From: Burkholderiaceae bacterium | Lineage (GTDB): Bacteria; Pseudomonadota; Gammaproteobacteria; Burkholderiales; Burkholderiaceae_E | Direction: 5' to 3' | Assembly (NCBI GenBank): GCA_024711155.1 | Contig: JANJTK010000227.1 | Coordinates: 1 to 46,945 of the forward strand | Length of the DNA stretch: 46,945 bases | Shown here: positions 20,695-30,485 of the stretch, piece by piece | Numbering within the stretch: the stretch's first letter is position 1 | Layout: each line of letters starts with the position of its first letter | Position numbers and translations under genes: made by a program | The notes under the pieces: model-generated | What the model was told of the DNA's origin: nothing | The model's database searches: none | The model's input: the letters and a program-made list of their open reading frames with translations, nothing else

Positions 20695-23559
20695 TCAGAG
20701 CGTGCGCGCCACCTCCTTGATCTCGAACACCTCGAGCTGGTCGCCTTCCTTGATGTCGCTGAAGTTCTTCAGCGACAGGCCGCACTCGAAGCCCTCGCGA
20801 ACCTCGCGCACGTCGTCCTTGAAGCGGCGCAGCGAGTCGAGCTCGCCGGTCCACACGACGGTGCTGTCGCGCAGCAGGCGCACCCGCGCTCCGCGCCGTA
20901 CCACGCCCTCGAGCACCATGCAGCCGGCAACGGCGCCGACCTTCGGCACGCGGATGATCTGGCGGATCTCGACCAACCCGATCGCCTCTTCCTTCTGTTC
21001 CGGCGACAGCAGCCCGGACATCGCCGCCTTCACGTCGTCCACGGCGTCGTAGATGATGTTGTAGTAGCGGATGTCGATGCCGTTGGCCTCGGCCAGCCGC
21101 TTCGCCTGCTGGTCGGCGCGCACGTTGAAGCCGATGATGACGGCCCTCGACGCGGCGGCAAGGTTGACGTCGTTCTCGCTGATGCCGCCGACGCCCTGGT
21201 GCACGATCTGCACCTTGACCTCGTCGGTCGAGAGCTTGAGCATCGCGTGCGCGAGCGCCTCCTGAGAACCCTGCACGTCGGCCTTGACGATCAGCGAGAG
21301 CGTCTTGACCTCGCCCGCCGTCATCTGCTCGAACACGTTTTCGAGCTTCGCCGCCTGCTGCTTCGCGAGCTTGACGTCGCGGAACTTGCCCTGGCGGAAC
21401 AGCGCGATCTCGCGCGCCTTGCGCTCGTCGCCGAGCACGATCACTTCCGAGCCGGCGGCCGGCACGTCCTGCAGGCCCTGGATCTCGACCGGGATCGACG
21501 GGCCCGCCTCGGTGACCGGTTTGCCGTTCTCGTCGAGCATCGCGCGCACGCGGCCGAACGACGATCCGGCGAGCACGACGTCGCCGCGCCGCAGCGTGCC
21601 GGCCTGCACCAGCACGGTCGCCACCGCGCCGCGGCCCTTGTCGAGCCGCGCCTCGATGACGATGCCCTTGGCCGCGCCATCCTTCGCCGCCGTCAGTTCG
21701 AGCACTTCCGCCTGCAGCAGCACGTTCTCGAGCAGGTCGTCGATGCCCTGCCCGGTCTTGGCCGAGACCGGCACGAACGGCACCTCGCCGCCGTACTCCT
21801 CGGGCACGACCTGGTGCGAAACCAGTTCCTGCCTGACGCGCTCGGGGTTGGCCTCGGGCTTGTCGATCTTGTTCATCGCAACGACGATCGGCACCCCGGC
21901 CGCCTTCGCGTGGTTGATCGCCTCGACCGACTGCGGCATCACGCCGTCGTCGGCCGCGACCACCAGGATCACGATGTCGGTGGCCTTCGCGCCGCGCGCG
22001 CGCATCGCCGTGAACGCCTCGTGTCCCGGGGTGTCCAGGAACGTGACGACGCCGCGCGGCGTCTCGACGTGATAGGCGCCGATGTGCTGGGTGATGCCGC
22101 CGGCCTCCCCGGCAGCGACCTTCGCGCGCCGGATGTAGTCGAGCAGCGACGTCTTGCCGTGGTCGACGTGGCCCATCACCGTCACCACCGGCGGACGCGG
22201 CTCCTGCGCGGCATCCGCGTGCGGCGCATCCTCGACCAGCAGCGCCTCGGGGTCGTCCAGCCTCGCCGCGAGCGCCTTGTGGCCCATGTCCTCCACCAGG
22301 ATCATCGCCGTGTCCTGGTCGAGCACCTGGTTGATCGTCACCATCTGGCCGAGCTTCATCAGCGCCTTGATGACCTCGGCCGCCTTGACCGACATCTTGT
22401 GCGCCAGGTCGGCCACGGTGATCGTCTCGGGGACGTGAACCTCGCGCACGATCGGCTCGTTCGACGCCTGCGCCGTCGCCTGGCTGGCCACCTCGTGCCG
22501 CCCGGCGCCACGGTGACGCGCTCCGCCCTTGCCGCGCCAGCCGGCGTCTGCCGTGGTCCCGCGAGTCTTGATGCCGCGCTTCTTCGCGGCCTCCTCGGAC
22601 CACGTCGACGAGAGCTTCTCGCTCTTCACGTGCTTCTTGTCGCCCGCGGGCGCCGTGCCGGGCGCCGCGCCCGGCGCCGGCCGGCCCCCGGCCGGACGGT
22701 GCAGCGTGCCGCTCACGCCGGCCTTGCCCGGTGCACCCGGTGGCTGGCCGGCGGCCGGCGGCTGCGCTGCCGCAGCGGGCGGTCGCGCGGCTGGCGGCGC
22801 CTCGACGGGCTTCGGCTGCGGCCGGCGCTGCATGGTCATCAGCCGGTTGATCTCGGCGACCTCGGCCTCGACGGCCTTGCGCGCGCGCGCCTGTTCCTCG
22901 GCATCTGCAGTGGCCTTGCGCGCCGCCTCGTCGGCTGCCCGCGCGCCCGCGTCGGCCCGCTCGCGTTCGGCGCGCTGCGCCTCGATGTCGATCGAAGCCG
23001 CGCGCTCGGCCTCGCGGCGCGCCTCTTCCTCGCGCAGCCTCGCTTCGGCTGCGGCCTCCGCTTCGCGCTGGCGCTCACGCTCGAGCCGCTCCTGCTTCTC
23101 GCGCAGTTCGGCGTGCTGGCGCTCGAGCAGCTCGCGCTGGCGCGCCTCCTCGGCCTCGCGCAGGCGGCGCTGCTCCTCGTCGACCACCGAGACCACCGGC
23201 GCCGGCGCCGCCTCGGCTTCGGGCGCGGCCACCAGTTCGACCGGTGCGGCGTCGCCGATGTCGCGCTTGACGAAGACGCGCTTCTTGCGCACCTCGACCT
23301 GGATCGTGCGCGCCTTGCCGGTCGCGTCGGCCTGCTTGATCTCGGACGTCTGCTTGCGCGTCAGCGTGATCCGGCGCTTGGGCGCCTCCTCGGCGCCGTG
23401 CGCGCGACGCAGCGCGGCCAGCAGCTGTTCCTTGTCGGCTTCGCTCAGCTCGTCATCCGGAGACTGCTTGGTGACGCCGGCAGCCTGCAGTTGCTCGAGC
23501 AACGCCTCGGCCGGCATCTTCAGCTCCGCCGCAAACCTCGCCACGTTCGTACTCGCCAT
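20695..23559 (-). CDS. infB: Translation initiation factor IF-2
   Basis: A 954-residue GTPase that brings fMet-tRNA to the 30S P site. The N-terminal IF2-N domain ([20 protein letters not shown]) leads into a long charged coiled-coil region of [12 protein letters not shown]-type repeats (about 120-250). A Pro/Ala-rich linker and a second IF2-N module ([20 protein letters not shown]) follow. The G domain starts with [20 protein letters not shown] near residue 465, with [12 protein letters not shown] and [14 protein letters not shown]. The C-terminal domains end at [14 protein letters not shown] at 23559 has a GGAAGGA site. Length is typical for beta-proteobacteria. Confidence 0.97.
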
Positions 23560-23630
23560 GCTCTTCCTTCCAGGGTCGCCCTGCATCACCGCGCCGCGCC
23601 GCGGCCATTCACCCGCCGGTCAGCGCACCG

Positions 23631-25148
23631 TCACGCCCCGGCCTGTTCCCGCGCCGCATCGGACGCTTCCGCCGGCTCGTCGAACCAGTGCGCTCGCGCC
23701 TTCATGATCAGGTCGCGGGCGCGCGCATCGTCGATGCCGGTCGCTTCGACGAGCTCGTCGACGGCCAGCTCGGCCAGCTCGTCGCGGGTGTGCACGCCCG
23801 CGTCGGCCAGCCGGGCCGCGAGCTCGCGGTCCATGCCCTCGAGCGCCAGCAGGTCCTCGGCGGTCGTGCCGATCTTCTCCTCGGTGGCGATCGCCTCGTT
23901 CAGCAGCGCGTTGCGCGCGCGCGTGCGCAGCTCGTTGACCGTGTCCTCGTCGAAGGACTCGATCTCGAGCATTTCGTTGATCGGCACGTACGCGACTTCC
24001 TCGACCGAAGTGAAGCCCTCGTCGATCAGGATGTCGGCGACCTCCTCGTCGACGTCGAGCTTCTCCATGAAGACCTCGCGCATCCCGTGGCGTTCGCTCT
24101 CGCTCTTCGCCTGCGATTCCTCGGCGCTCATGATGTTGATGCGCCAGCCGGTGAGCTCGGAGGCGAGCCTGACGTTGCGCCCGTTGGTGCCGATCGCGAG
24201 CGCGAGGTTGTCCTCGTCGACGACCACGTCCATGCTGTGCTTGTCCTCGTCGACGACGATCGACGAGACGTTGGCCGGCGCCAGCGCGCCGATCACGAAC
24301 TGCGCCGGGTCCTCGGACCACAGCACGATGTCGACGCGCTCGCCGGCCAGTTCGCCCGTGACCGCCTGCACGCGCGAGCCGCGCACGCCCACGCAGGTGC
24401 CGATCGGGTCCACGCGGCGGTCGTTCGAGTGCACCGCGATCTTGGCGCGCACGCCCGCGTCGCGCGCGGCCGCCTTGATCTCGAGCAGCCCCTGTTCGAT
24501 CTCGGGCACCTCGTTGGCGAACAGGTGCCGGATGAACTCGGGCGACGTGCGCGACAGCATCAGCTGCGGGCCGCGGCCCTCGCGGTTGATCTGCGCGACG
24601 TAGGCGCGCACGCGGTCGCCCACGCGCAGGTTCTCCTTCGGGATCATCTGGTCGCGCGTCAGCCGCGCCTCGACCTTGCCGGACTCGACGATCGCGCCCT
24701 CGCGATCCATGCGCTTGATCGTCCCCGACAGGATCGGCTCGCCGCGCTCGAGGAAGTCGTTGATGATCTGCTCGCGCTCGGCGTCGCGGATCTTCTGCAG
24801 GATCACCTGCTTGGCGGCCTGCGCGCCGATGCGGCCCATGTCGACCGGCTCGAGCTCTTCCTCGATGTAGTCGCCGACCTGGATGTCCGGAATCTGCTTC
24901 TGCGCTTCCGTCAGGATGATCTGGATGTCGTGGTCCTCGAGCTCGCCGTCCGGCACCACCTGCCAGCGCCGGAACGACTCCGACTCGCCGCTCATGCGAT
25001 CGACCGAGACGCGCACGTCGACTTCTTCCTTGAAGCGCTTCTTGGTCGCGGAAGCCAGCGCGCTCTCGAGCGCGCCGAACACCACCTCGCGCGGAACGTT
25101 CTTCTCGCGCGCCAGCGCATCCACCAGCAGCAACACTTCCCGACTCAT
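23631..25148 (-). CDS. nusA: Transcription termination/antitermination factor NusA
   Basis: A 505-residue NusA, acting with RNA polymerase in pausing, termination and antitermination. The N-terminal polymerase-binding domain is [20 protein letters not shown]; the S1 domain includes [20 protein letters not shown]. Two KH domains follow ([20 protein letters not shown] and [20 protein letters not shown]). Two C-terminal acidic/HhH repeats ([35 protein letters not shown]) resemble E. coli AR1/AR2. Its ATG overlaps the rimP stop (ATGA). NusA could act on the intrinsic terminator in its own operon leader; that is inference. Confidence 0.97.
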
Positions 25149-25801
25149 TTACGCCTCTCCTGGAACTTCAGCTTCGGCACCAGCCGAGCCAGCTCGATCT
25201 CGTCGAGCGCGAAGACGAGCCTGCGGCCCGTCGCCCCGGGGATGTCCGGCGCGGCTTCGTCCTGCGCGGCCCCTGTCCCCAAAGCCTCTTTCCCCAAAGC
25301 CTCTTTCCCCGCAGCCTCTATCCCTGCGGCCTCTTTCTTCGCCGCAACCTTCCTTGTGGCACCCTTCTTTACGGCACCCTTCTTCGCCGCCGGCTTCCCG
25401 CCGGCCGCGCCCTGCGCCCGCTCGATCAGGTCGAGCCCGTAGCGCCCGTCGCCCTCGGTCGTCAGCACGCCCTCGAAGTTGCGCCGCCCTTCCAGCGGCC
25501 GACGCAGCCTGACAGTCACCTCCGCACCGGCGAATCGCTCGAAATCGGCCACCTTCTTCAGCGGCCGGTCAAGTCCGGGCGACGACACCTCGAGTCGCGC
25601 GTACTCGACGTCCTCGACCGCGAGCACGTGCGACAGCTGGCGGCTGGCACGCTCGCAGTCGTCGAGCGAAATTCCCGCGGGCGCGTCGATGTAGACGCGC
25701 AGCAAGCCGTTGCGCGCGAACTCCACGTCGACCACCTCGTAGCCCATGCCGGCCAGGGCGCGCTCGATGATCGCCTGCGTCGACGTCACCTGTGCGGACA
25801 C
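25145..25801 (-). CDS. rimP: Ribosome maturation factor RimP with a repeat insertion
   Basis: A 218-residue RimP, which assists early 30S assembly. The N-terminal domain runs from [20 protein letters not shown] to [20 protein letters not shown], and the SH3-like C-terminal domain starts at [19 protein letters not shown]. The family is normally about 150 residues. Here about 50-60 extra Lys/Ala/Glu-rich residues in pentapeptide repeats (GKEAL, AAKKE and similar) split the C-terminal domain before [19 protein letters not shown]. The start is GTG at 25801, with AGGGGG eight bases upstream; GTG at 25789 is an alternative. An in-frame ATG 108 bases upstream would read through the leader terminator and is rejected. 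Confidence 0.92.
25276..25395 (-). repeat. 15-bp tandem repeat array inside rimP
   Basis: Eight successive 15-base units occur, from two identical TCCCCAAAGCCTCTT copies to increasingly diverged TCTTCGCCGCCGGCT. Each unit encodes five residues (for example GKEAL). The period preserves the reading frame. The identical copies sit at the end nearest the rimP stop, as expected for recent slippage growth. Confidence 0.9.
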
Positions 25802-25870
25802 TCGCGAACCCCCTGCCGGCCCGATGCCGGCCCAGCCGCCGCGCCTTCGGCCCCATGCCGATGCGAGCGG

Positions 25871-25899
25871 AAAAAAAAATGGGCCTTGCGAGCCCATTT
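25871..25899 (-). terminator. Intrinsic terminator in the rimP operon leader
   Basis: On the minus strand AAATGGGC, seven-base loop TCGCAAG, GCCCATTT runs straight into a nine-base T-run. This is a textbook Rho-independent terminator. It lies downstream of a good promoter and 70 bases before the rimP start, so it is probably a conditional attenuator rather than the end of rluB, whose stop lies upstream of the promoter. Confidence 0.85.
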
Positions 25900-25930
25900 C
25901 TTCGAGCACGCCGCCCCTGCTTGCTGCGCA

Positions 25931-25960
25931 GGCGCTCCGGATGACGTCTTCCGGAGCGCC
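25931..25960 (-). other. Perfect 11-bp hairpin in the rimP leader RNA
   Basis: GGCGCTCCGGA and TCCGGAGCGCC pair perfectly across the eight-base loop (AGACGTCA on the RNA strand). It lies 31 bases 5' of the terminator in the same leader. The 5' end of the leader contains AGCGCCG (complement of 25979-25985), which can pair with CGGCGCT in the 5' arm and therefore competes with this hairpin. No tRNA-like or known riboswitch core was recognised. Confidence 0.75.
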
Positions 25961-25997
25961 GGGATGCTGCTGCCGGGTCGGCGCTTGTTAGCTTTGC

Positions 25998-26026
25998 ATT
26001 ATAGCCCGAAATGCAGCCACGGACCA
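25998..26026 (-). promoter_or_regulatory. Promoter of the rimP-nusA-infB operon
   Basis: A perfect TATAAT (26003 down to 25998) is preceded after 17 bases by TGGTCC, a poor -35. Transcription would start near 25991 and give a leader of about 190 bases with two hairpins. It lies 64 bases after the rluB stop. Confidence 0.65.
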
Positions 26027-26066
26027 GCCGCAGCCTTCTTCACCACGCAGCCTCCCGCGGTCTTGT

Positions 26067-27962
26067 TCAGCCGCCGCCCGAGCCGCCGCCCGAGCCCCCG
26101 CCCGAGCGCCCGCGCCGCGAGCGCCCGCCGCGCTTCCCGCCGGGCTTGCCCGCGCCGGGGCCGCGCTGCCCCCCCGGCCCGCCCTGGCCTCCGTGCCCGC
26201 CCGGGCCGCCTTGTCCGTGCCCTGCCGAACCCGGCCCGCGCTGCCCCGCGCCCACGGCGCCGCGCTTGCCCTGGCCGCTGCGCGATCCGCGCCTGCCACC
26301 GCCGGGTCCGCCGCCCGGTCCGCCGCCCGGTCCGCCACCGGCGCCGTAACCGCCGAAGCCGCCGCCGATTCCACCAGCGCGCCCGTGATCCATCGGCCCG
26401 GTGAACGCCGCCGAGGGTGCCCCGCGCTTGCGCGAACGCGCGGCACCGCGCCTGGCGGGGGCCGCCTGGCCGGCATCGCCCTTGCGCACCGCACGCGTGA
26501 TTCCCTCGAGATGGGCGTTGGCCGACGGCGGCTGCCACTCGTCGTCGTCCCTCGGATCGTGGCGCGGAGCCTCTTCCTCCTCCGGCAGCGCACGATTGCC
26601 GATCGAATCGTCGGGGTACTCGTCGTCCCAGTCGTCGCCGCCCCGGTTCCAGGCATCGTCATCGGCGCCGGCGCGCTGCGCGCGCTCCTCACCGGACTCG
26701 TCGCCTGAGGCGTCCCCCAACGCGCCCTCCCCGCTCGCCGCAGCAGGCGCGCCGGCGCCCGGCCGCAGCGCCTGGAGCAACGCCTGCACCTCGCCTTCGC
26801 CGAGTTCGATCCAGCGGCCGCGCGCGAGCCCGCGAGGCAACGCCAGCGGTCCGAAGCGCAACCTGACCAACCGGCTGACCGTCAGGCCCACCACCTCCAT
26901 CATCCGGCGCACTTCGCGATTGCGCCCCTCGGAGAGCGTCACGCGATACCAGGCGTTCGCCCCGTCGCCGCCGAGCTCGTCGATCGACGCGAACTTCGCC
27001 GCGCCGTCCTCGAGCTGGACGCCCTCGAGCAACTTCTGGCGCGCCTCATCCTCGATCCGGCCGAGCACGCGCACCGCGTACTCACGCTCCCAGCCATAGC
27101 GCGGGTGCATCAGCTTGTTCGCGACGTCGCCCGAGGTCGTGAAGACCAGCAGGCCCTCGGTGTTGAAATCCAGCCGGCCGACGGCCACCCAGCGCGCACC
27201 CTTGATGCGCGGCAGGCGGTCGAACACGGTGACGCGCTGACCGGGGTCGTCGCGGGTGCAGATCTCTCCGGGCGGCTTGTGATAGAGCAGCACGCGCGGC
27301 GCAGCGGGTGCCGGCCGGCGATTGATCGCGCGGCCGTTGACGCGCACCTGGTCCTTCGGCGCGATTCGCTGGCCGATGTGCGCGGGCTGGCCGTTCACCG
27401 ACACGCGGCCGGCGAGGATCAGTTCCTCCATGTCGCGGCGCGAACCCAGTCCGGCGTCGGCGAGCACCTTGTGCAGCTTCGGGTGTTCCACGGACGGAGC
27501 GCCCTGGCCGCCACTCTGGCGCACTGCTACTGCGTCGAGTCCGATCGCCGTGCCACTGGCGTAAGCGGGCAGCGGCTCGGCGTCCTCCGGCGCGGGCGCA
27601 GGCGCGCGCTCGCGCCGCGGGGGCCGTTGCTGCTGATGCGGCTGATGCGGCTGCTGATGCGCGTTGTCGCCAGCCGCACGTTCCGTGTCCGCGCCTTCGG
27701 CGCCCGGTCCGTCGCCGCTCCGCCCGCGCTTGCTTCCAGACCTGCGGCCGCCGCGGCGCCTCTGGAACGGCCCTCGCGGACCGCGCTTCCCGCCTTCGCC
27801 GGGGCCGCCCCCGACGCCTTCGGCGCCGCCTCCTCCAGTGTCGGCCCCATCACCCGAGGCGGCATCGGCTGCTGCAGCCGCGCCCCCGCCAGCAGAAGCC
27901 GCGTCCTCGGAACCTGGCGCGACAGCGCCGTGGCGACCCTCGCCGGATTGCTCGTCGTTCAA
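26067..27962 (-). CDS. rluB: 23S rRNA pseudouridine-2605 synthase with long disordered tails
   Basis: A 631-residue RluB; the enzyme isomerises U2605 of 23S rRNA. Residues about 165-215 are the S4 domain ([20 protein letters not shown]). The catalytic aspartate lies in [15 protein letters not shown] near 263, and the core ends near 420. The N-terminal 160 residues are Gly/Ala/Arg-rich with a QPHQPHQQQ stretch. The C-terminal 210 are an acidic segment followed by glycine-rich repeats ([19 protein letters not shown]). E. coli RluB is about 290 residues. The start is a TTG overlapping the scpB stop (TTGA); an internal GTG near residue 147 would remove the N-terminal tail. Confidence 0.9.
26301..26336 (-). 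repeat. 12-bp tandem repeat coding GGGP units of RluB
   Basis: Three 12-base units (GCCGGGTCCGCC, then GCCCGGTCCGCC twice) encode Gly-Gly-Gly-Pro repeats in the C-terminal tail. Confidence 0.85.
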
Positions 27963-28654
27963 CTCGAACCTCGCTCGCTGCCTTCGATCGGCTCCGACTC
28001 CTCGGGCCGCTCCAGCGCGGCCGTCGGGTCGATCGCGCCGGGCACACCGGCGCCGCCTTCCGTTTCCCCGATCGCCCCGCCCGCTTCGGCGGCGAAGTCG
28101 ATCATCCGTTGCGCCATTGCGTCCGCCGCGCCGCCCGCCTGCCCGGGTTCGGGCAGCGACGGGAGTTCGGCAAGCGAGCGCAGCCCCAGGTCGTCCAGGA
28201 ACTGCCGGGTCGTGCCGAGCAGTTCCGGACGGCCCGGCACGTCCTTGTGTCCGATCACTTCGATCCAGCCCCGCTCCTCGAGCGTCTTGACGAGCTGCGA
28301 CGCCACCGTGACCCCGCGGATCTCCTCGATGTCGCCGCGCGTGACCGGCTGTCGATACGCGACGATCGCCAGCGTCTCCATCAACGCGCGCGAGTACCGC
28401 GGCGGCTTCTCTGGATTGAGCCGCTCGAGATAGGGCGCCATCTCGGGCGCGCTCTGGAAGCGCCAGCCGGTCGCCAGCGCGGCGAGGCGCACGCCGCGGC
28501 CCTGCCAGTCGGCCTGCAGTTCGTCGAGCAGCGCGCGCACCGTGTCGGCCGCAATCTCGTCGGCGAACAGCCGCCGAAGCTCGCCGATGGCCAATGGCTG
28601 CTGCGCGCAGAACAGCGCGGCTTCGATGACGATCTTGGCTTCCTGCGTATTCAT
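27959..28654 (-). CDS. scpB: Segregation and condensation protein B
   Basis: A 231-residue ScpB, the winged-helix dimer that binds ScpA in the SMC condensin. Motifs: [20 protein letters not shown], then [28 protein letters not shown] (split core), [22 protein letters not shown] and [14 protein letters not shown]. An acidic tail of about 60 residues follows. ATG at 28654 matches the family N-terminus; an upstream ATG adds 26 unrelated residues. It is coupled to rluB through a TTGA overlap. scpA is at the left of the window. Confidence 0.94.

Positions 28655-30408: not shown

Positions 30409-30485
<77 letters not shown>

Follow-up and report, generated by a model that had tools for sequence, protein, structure and literature searches.

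The DNA upstream of rimP in the window (the whole 46,945-nt stretch that was analyzed, contig C274 of a 2,950,264-bp assembly in 300 contigs) probably carries a rimP-leader attenuator of the rimP-nusA-infB operon, namely a NusA-type feedback attenuator whose antiterminator-like domain is specific to the lineage. The core attenuator is not new, since a 2010 study reported the rimP-leader as the most ubiquitous transcription attenuator and proposed NusA as its regulator (Naville & Gautheret, PMC2965389, accessible text). What is new is the lineage-specific domain, made up of stem P1, hairpin P2 and the motif GUGCUC; no description of the P1/GUGCUC extension was found in the open-licence literature searched. 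An earlier note on this DNA had proposed a transcriptional attenuator before rimP-nusA-infB, perhaps linked to NusA, which comparison with relatives and the accessible portions of the literature (PMC2965389, PMC12288461, PMC4448216) now back; its remark that premature terminators before rimP are already described elsewhere matches the 2010 rimP-leader (PMC2965389, accessible text).

Layout of the locus and its putative promoter

The whole leader element lies on the minus strand and is read in the order rluB end (26067), TATAAT, P1/P2, GUGCUC, purine linker, terminator and rimP. The products of rimP, nusA, infB and the upstream genes rluB and scpB were identified by NCBIfam matches exceeding the cut-offs: rimP at 25145–25801 (−) by NF000929.0 (182.2 bits, cut-off 147; GTG start at 25801 placed by eye), nusA at 23631–25148 (−) by TIGR01953 (410.5 bits, cut-off 253.4) and infB, encoding IF-2, at 20695–23589 (−) by TIGR00487 (869.9 bits, cut-off 424.4). 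By eye, GGGGG at 25813–25809 before the GTG is the likely ribosome-binding site. The predicted RimP has 218 aa; its C-terminal half contains an Ala/Lys-rich stretch, around which the RimP matches of several relatives (G011, G012, G017, G020) are split. RluB (26067–27962, −) has a long Gly-rich low-complexity tail at its C-terminal end. The only Rfam match in the window at the gathering threshold is a tRNA gene at 30412–30485 (−).

The TATAAT box, perfect 11-bp hairpin and nine-T terminator before rimP that the earlier note had listed are all present on the minus strand, the terminator being separated from the rimP GTG by 69 bases. TATAAT (25998–26003, −) is a probable −10 box; a TATAAT precedes the terminator in all 15 genus leaders used, the T tract ending 127–182 nt further on. 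No −35 box was seen in the sequence upstream of TATAAT in the window, and a consensus promoter scan of positions 24000–28000 reported no promoter. From the −10 box, transcription would start at ~25991 on the minus strand, and the RNA from this putative start to the terminator would be ~120 nt long. P1 pairs GCGCCG-A-CCC (25975–25984, −) with GGGGCGGCGU (25908–25917, −), in which the fourth G is unpaired; both strands were assigned from the minimum free energy fold and conserved pairs. P2 is a perfect 11-bp hairpin with arms GGCGCUCCGGA (25950–25960, −) and UCCGGAGCGCC (25931–25941, −), each supported by covariation. GUGCUC (25904–25909, −) is followed by the purine linker GAAGAAA (25897–25903, −), whose sequence makes it a candidate antiterminator loop and lets its A and G face the T tract, and by the intrinsic terminator TGGGC-TCGCAAG-GCCCA-T9 (25871–25896, −), which has the rimP-leader motif as judged from the sequence pattern, the relatives and the accessible text of PMC2965389. 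With its flank, the terminator reads AAATGGGCTCGCAAGGCCCATTTTTTTTT (25899–25871, −), including nine T.

Conservation of the terminator beside rimP

The segment GGGCTCGCAAGGCCC, followed by A and T9, provides the GGGc..gCCC stem and T stretch of the general rimP-leader, and the window leader also has its operon position and its conservation in relatives. As drawn in Figure 2b of PMC2965389 (accessible text), the general form stands before the same operon, with the same GGGc..gCCC terminator and T tract as here; it lies 4–130 nt from the gene, a range that the 69 nt of the window fits. The accessible text of that paper describes no larger conserved element or visible antiterminator, whereas the window has P1, P2 and GUGCUC before the terminator.

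In the whole 2,950,264-bp assembly, TGGGC-N(3-10)-GCCCATTTTTT occurs once, at the rimP leader. The consensus scan did not report the rimP-leader terminator, probably because the T tract is taken up in pairing with the A-rich 5′ flank. Eighty loci from named organisms were found via NusA, and the 76 with at least 700 bp upstream of nusA were kept; GGGC..GCCC and a T run were present within 900 bp before rimP in 74 of these 76 loci, many of which are mutually close kin (Achromobacter, Bordetella). Elsewhere in the same loci, the terminator pattern had no match in 720,747 bp on both strands. The two misses of the strict pattern are both from Verticiella and read GGGT..GCCC and GGGT..ACCC (fourth pair U-G and U-A), the second being a compensatory change. 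All 80 further stretches before rimP from family and order relatives carried the pattern. Across 300 sampled genomes of the order, the strict pattern was present in 231, mostly once each among the matches listed, and absent from 69, where matches were counted genome-wide and not every one was placed beside rimP; by our own count, a reversed control pattern gave six matches in the same 300 genomes.

For the fourth stem pair, a pattern allowing C/T and G/A at these positions gave C-G in 120, U-G in seven, U-A in one and a C-A mismatch in none of 128 distinct leaders, these counts, like those of the T run, referring to distinct sequences and not to independent events. Since this pattern fixes GGG and CCC, their constancy in it is no result. 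Four loci did not match it (L025 and the incomplete L083, L105 and L108), and the RimP-bearing genomes G037 and G066 were left out of the sequences compared. The spacing between GGGC and GCCC ranges from 3 to 12 bases among distinct leaders. The T run has an unusually fixed length, with exactly nine T in 72 of the 128 distinct rimP leaders and in every one of the 15 genus leaders. By eye, several other Burkholderiales, among them L049 (near 4476) and Achromobacter loci like it, have a T tract that almost abuts the rimP ATG, without a clear Shine-Dalgarno sequence. Taken as sequences, these comparisons show that in the examined loci of the order the predicted terminator is conserved in its sequence and not in its shape alone.

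An RluB-type gene lies upstream both in the window, where rluB is on the same strand, and in seven of seven further loci (RluB being the best match in all and above the cut-off in four), so linkage of the terminator to rluB had to be weighed. The terminator might be the mere 3′ end of an scpB-rluB transcript, with rimP served by its own promoter further downstream, and the stretch from rluB to the −10 box has no further terminator in the scan, though the same scan missed the rimP-leader terminator. We consider this improbable, as the TATAAT box stands between rluB and the terminator, and the terminator stays by rimP while its distance to the upstream ORF varies from 55 (L046) to 547 (L049) bases; in one relative (L163, cut by the contig end), the upstream neighbor is a 5S rRNA. 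For other bacteria, this motif has been called an attenuator (PMC2965389, accessible text), or both short and long RNAs have been observed (PMC4448216, accessible text). From the varying upstream distance and the 5S rRNA neighbor, the predicted terminator is a gene-linked signal that goes with rimP.

The earlier note had suggested a covariance search against Rfam, including its rimP leader entry. That entry, RF01770, built for Gammaproteobacteria, aligned weakly over the whole window leader with the terminator on the 3′ hairpin of the model, at 14.9 bits (E 9.6, chance level alone) relative to a gathering score of 47, so that there was no match at gathering. Under stricter filters, RF01770 matched none of 74 family genomes, while the E. 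coli control matched. RF01770 has two tandem terminators; the window has one, its upstream hairpin lacking a T tract. Membership of RF01770 was ruled out by the sub-gathering score, the lack of a match in the 74 family genomes and the lack of a tandem terminator. Matches to mir-3188, sX12 and sR30 were rejected as all were far below gathering scores. RNA surveys of Herbaspirillum and Shewanella include a 'rimP' element (PMC6337395) and RF01770 matches (PMC5471319), respectively, in their accessible texts.

Leader fold and the GUGCUC motif

The fold energy of the window leader has a z score of −3.70, and 0 of 200 dinucleotide shuffles were as good. Alignment A1 comprised 12 of the 15 genus leaders, omitting L010, L011 and L013, which have longer apical parts, and alignment A2 comprised the full set; both misalign L012 in the terminator, and the family alignment A3 was excluded from the counts. 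RNAalifold on the 12 leaders predicts P1, P2 and the terminator, the covariation term contributing just −0.78 of −38.45 kcal/mol. In the same 12 leaders, 95.8% of P1 cells were paired (92.6% in shuffles, with 4 of 500 as high) and P1 covariation was 0.235 (0.166 shuffled, 1 of 500 as high); only one P1 pair changes on both sides, in two of the 12 leaders, which 192 of 500 shuffles reach. For P2, 78.5% of cells were paired (69.3% shuffled, 0 of 500) and covariation was 0.215 (0.086 shuffled, 0 of 500), with four pairs changed on both sides, which 86 of 500 shuffles reach. These covariation shuffles do not keep relatedness.

An alignment-free search put the P1 5′ strand 15–19 bases past the −10 box in most g1 and g3 leaders (18 of 22), the support for single leaders being weak; this placement was not recovered in the window leader, where the best helix was a different one and 394 of 1000 shuffles were as good. 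The combined p value was 6e-4 for 20 non-independent representatives picked from 32 rows; at least 600 of 1000 shuffles were as good in L003, L024, L028 and L140, and fewer than 50 of 1000 in L012, L014, L017 and L121. Both P1 and GUGCUC reach sister genera. The folds and their covariation support an arrangement in the window's genus in which P1 and P2 would place the 5′ end of the leader beside the terminator.

This arrangement differs from the one in the earlier note, which had AGCGCCG near the 5′ end pairing with CGGCGCU of the 11-bp hairpin, so that two exclusive folds would gate transcription. The 7-bp complementarity AGCGCCG/CGGCGCT does exist in the window. The helix was not conserved across the genus, with 70.2% of cells paired, and showed no covariation above background (0.045, 0.072 shuffled, 420 of 500 at least as high). 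It would break the upstream hairpin P2, neither of its strands touches the arms of the terminator, and its 5′ strand is better accounted for by the conserved P1, where it pairs with the strand that immediately precedes the terminator. This switch is therefore highly improbable.

Over the 15 genus leaders, GUGCUC and GCCCAT9 each had a pairwise identity of 1.00. Identities were 0.47–0.54 in the apical region, at the transcript start, past the T tract and in the 46 nt ending at the −10 box. GUGCUC with the terminator was present in 31 of 74 family genomes and six of 16 family genera, and there was no GUGCUC match in the other 10 of the 16. The carriers include the 15 members of genus g1 and the seven g3 members with a RimP match; in one of the 31, G061, the spacer is long and not purine-only, so this match may be due to chance. 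Order-wide, GUGCUC was found in six of 300 genomes and two of 139 genera, both in the window's family.

A coding origin of the conserved GUGCUCGAAGAAAUGGGC, as a leader peptide or as an N-terminal extension of RimP starting from GTG 25909 or from the ATG in the terminator, is scarcely credible. In the window and some relatives (L002, L007, L008), the frame stays open and matches the phase of rimP, but the phase is lost in other genus members, such as L004, L005, L006, L009 and L014, stops occur in both frames of L003 and in one frame of L010 and L011, and the GGGC-GCCC spacing varies over the 3 to 12 bases given above. Coding was excluded as the cause of the block conservation on these three grounds, lost phase, stops and variable spacing.

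If G-U pairs are allowed, GCUC(A/G) complements UGGGC in the 5′ arm of the terminator. Between GUGCUC and UGGGC lies a linker of 6–10 bases, which consists of purines alone in 21 of 23 leaders from g1, g3 and g5; its purines also face the T tract, for which it may be kept. Pairing was computed on leaders with a pattern-called −10 box, which excluded L025, L152, L153, L163, L164, L169 and L172. While the 3′ arm is still missing, GCUC is predicted to pair with GGGC (read at its second G) at a probability of at least 0.8 in 19 of the 23 g1, g3 and g5 leaders (13 of 15, five of seven and one of one, respectively). GCUC was not the main partner of GGGC in L003, L013, L015 and L129, the last having a one-base-shifted register of the same stretch at 0.81; nor was it in four additional GUGCUC leaders, of g15 and g16, in none of which GCUC/GGGC reached 0.8. 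Composition-shuffled upstream sequence paired with GGGC at a mean of 0.77, compared with 0.96 in the genus; over all 73 leaders, GGGC pairing was 0.72 compared with 0.71 shuffled, that is, without general enrichment. The candidate antiterminator hairpin has a predicted energy of −3.0 to −4.0 kcal/mol and the terminator core −7.9 to −10.4 kcal/mol, the terminator being far more stable. As GGGC is nearly invariant, covariation cannot test the GCUC/GGGC pairing. From the predicted pairing, we infer that GUGCUC may act as an antiterminator. In L028, L140, L141 and L148, all of one sister genus, the sequence is GUGCUCGRAUCGAGUGAAUGGGC, in which CUCG can fold on the adjoining CGAG and not on the terminator arm. 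GCUCAAAGAA may resemble the RNA bound to the NusA KH domains in a mycobacterial structure; none of the papers matching this string was on NusA by title, and the putative likeness was given no weight. UGCUC may resemble boxA.

Proposed mechanism and its meaning

In the proposed mechanism, polymerase would start at ~25991 (−), make a leader of ~120 nt and reach the intrinsic terminator, where part of the polymerases would stop, releasing an RNA of ~120 nt, and the others would read into the operon. NusA, encoded downstream, would stimulate termination and limit its own operon, as in other bacteria. In the window's genus, P1 and P2 would bring the 5′ end beside the terminator, and the weak GCUC(A/G)/UGGGC hairpin (−3 to −4 kcal/mol) would form first, as polymerase enters the T tract, so that the terminator hairpin, with a core of about −8 to −10 kcal/mol, would nucleate more slowly. 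A factor that speeds hairpin formation, such as NusA, may then tip the outcome.

By analogy, control of the window operon by NusA is likely. In B. subtilis, NusA is autoregulated via NusA-stimulated termination in its own leader (2025 review PMC12288461, accessible text, citing Mondal 2016); that leader, like the one here, has an intrinsic terminator controlling NusA, with NusA dependence reported there and assumed here. In S. agalactiae, a single start gives rise to short and long RNAs, and termination occurs 31 nt downstream of it (PMC4448216, accessible text). In E. coli, rimP in the metY-nusA-infB operon follows two terminators, t1 and t2, and the operon is under NusA feedback (PMC6511841, accessible text); termination before rimP and feedback by NusA also belong to the attenuator proposed here. 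By the same text, the E. coli operon follows metY and has several promoters, whereas that of the window follows rluB and has one −10 box. A 3′-end study reported lower expression of an E. coli rimP 5′ UTR/ORF fusion in a Rho mutant (PMC7815308, accessible text), a result that the proposed model leaves unexplained.

A plain, weak terminator sensitive to NusA might suffice with no RNA switch, P1, P2 and GUGCUC just insulating the terminator or binding a protein; we regard this as a serious possibility, somewhat short of even. Leaders in some relatives are only 33–42 nt from the presumed −10 box to the T-tract end (L166, L168, L160, L029), a span in which an alternative fold would hardly fit, if at all, so the core function seems to need only the terminator and polymerase with its factors. 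The S. agalactiae termination site, the general form with no antiterminator visible in the accessible text of PMC2965389 and the lack of enriched pairing over all 73 leaders point the same way. Such a terminator accounts poorly for an invariant GUGCUC that is complementary to the terminator arm while the flanks within the genus have diverged, and for a linker of 6–10 bases between fixed ends in g1, g3 and g5.

The rimP-leader is among the most widespread proposed bacterial attenuators, and what reads its signal has been settled for few species. That some leaders are very short argues against a need for an RNA switch in its core function. More speculatively, and on balance unlikely, a switch-less rimP-leader acquired a sensor in one Burkholderiales family, in the form of an antiterminator domain of P1-P2 and the GUGCUC hairpin that either an operon protein (NusA, RimP or IF2) or a signal of ribosome assembly would stabilize or displace. 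If so, RNA folding would set the expression of ribosome maturation and transcription factors. As a conserved add-on complementary to a terminator arm, the domain offers a concrete case for testing how NusA-type terminators gain antiterminators.
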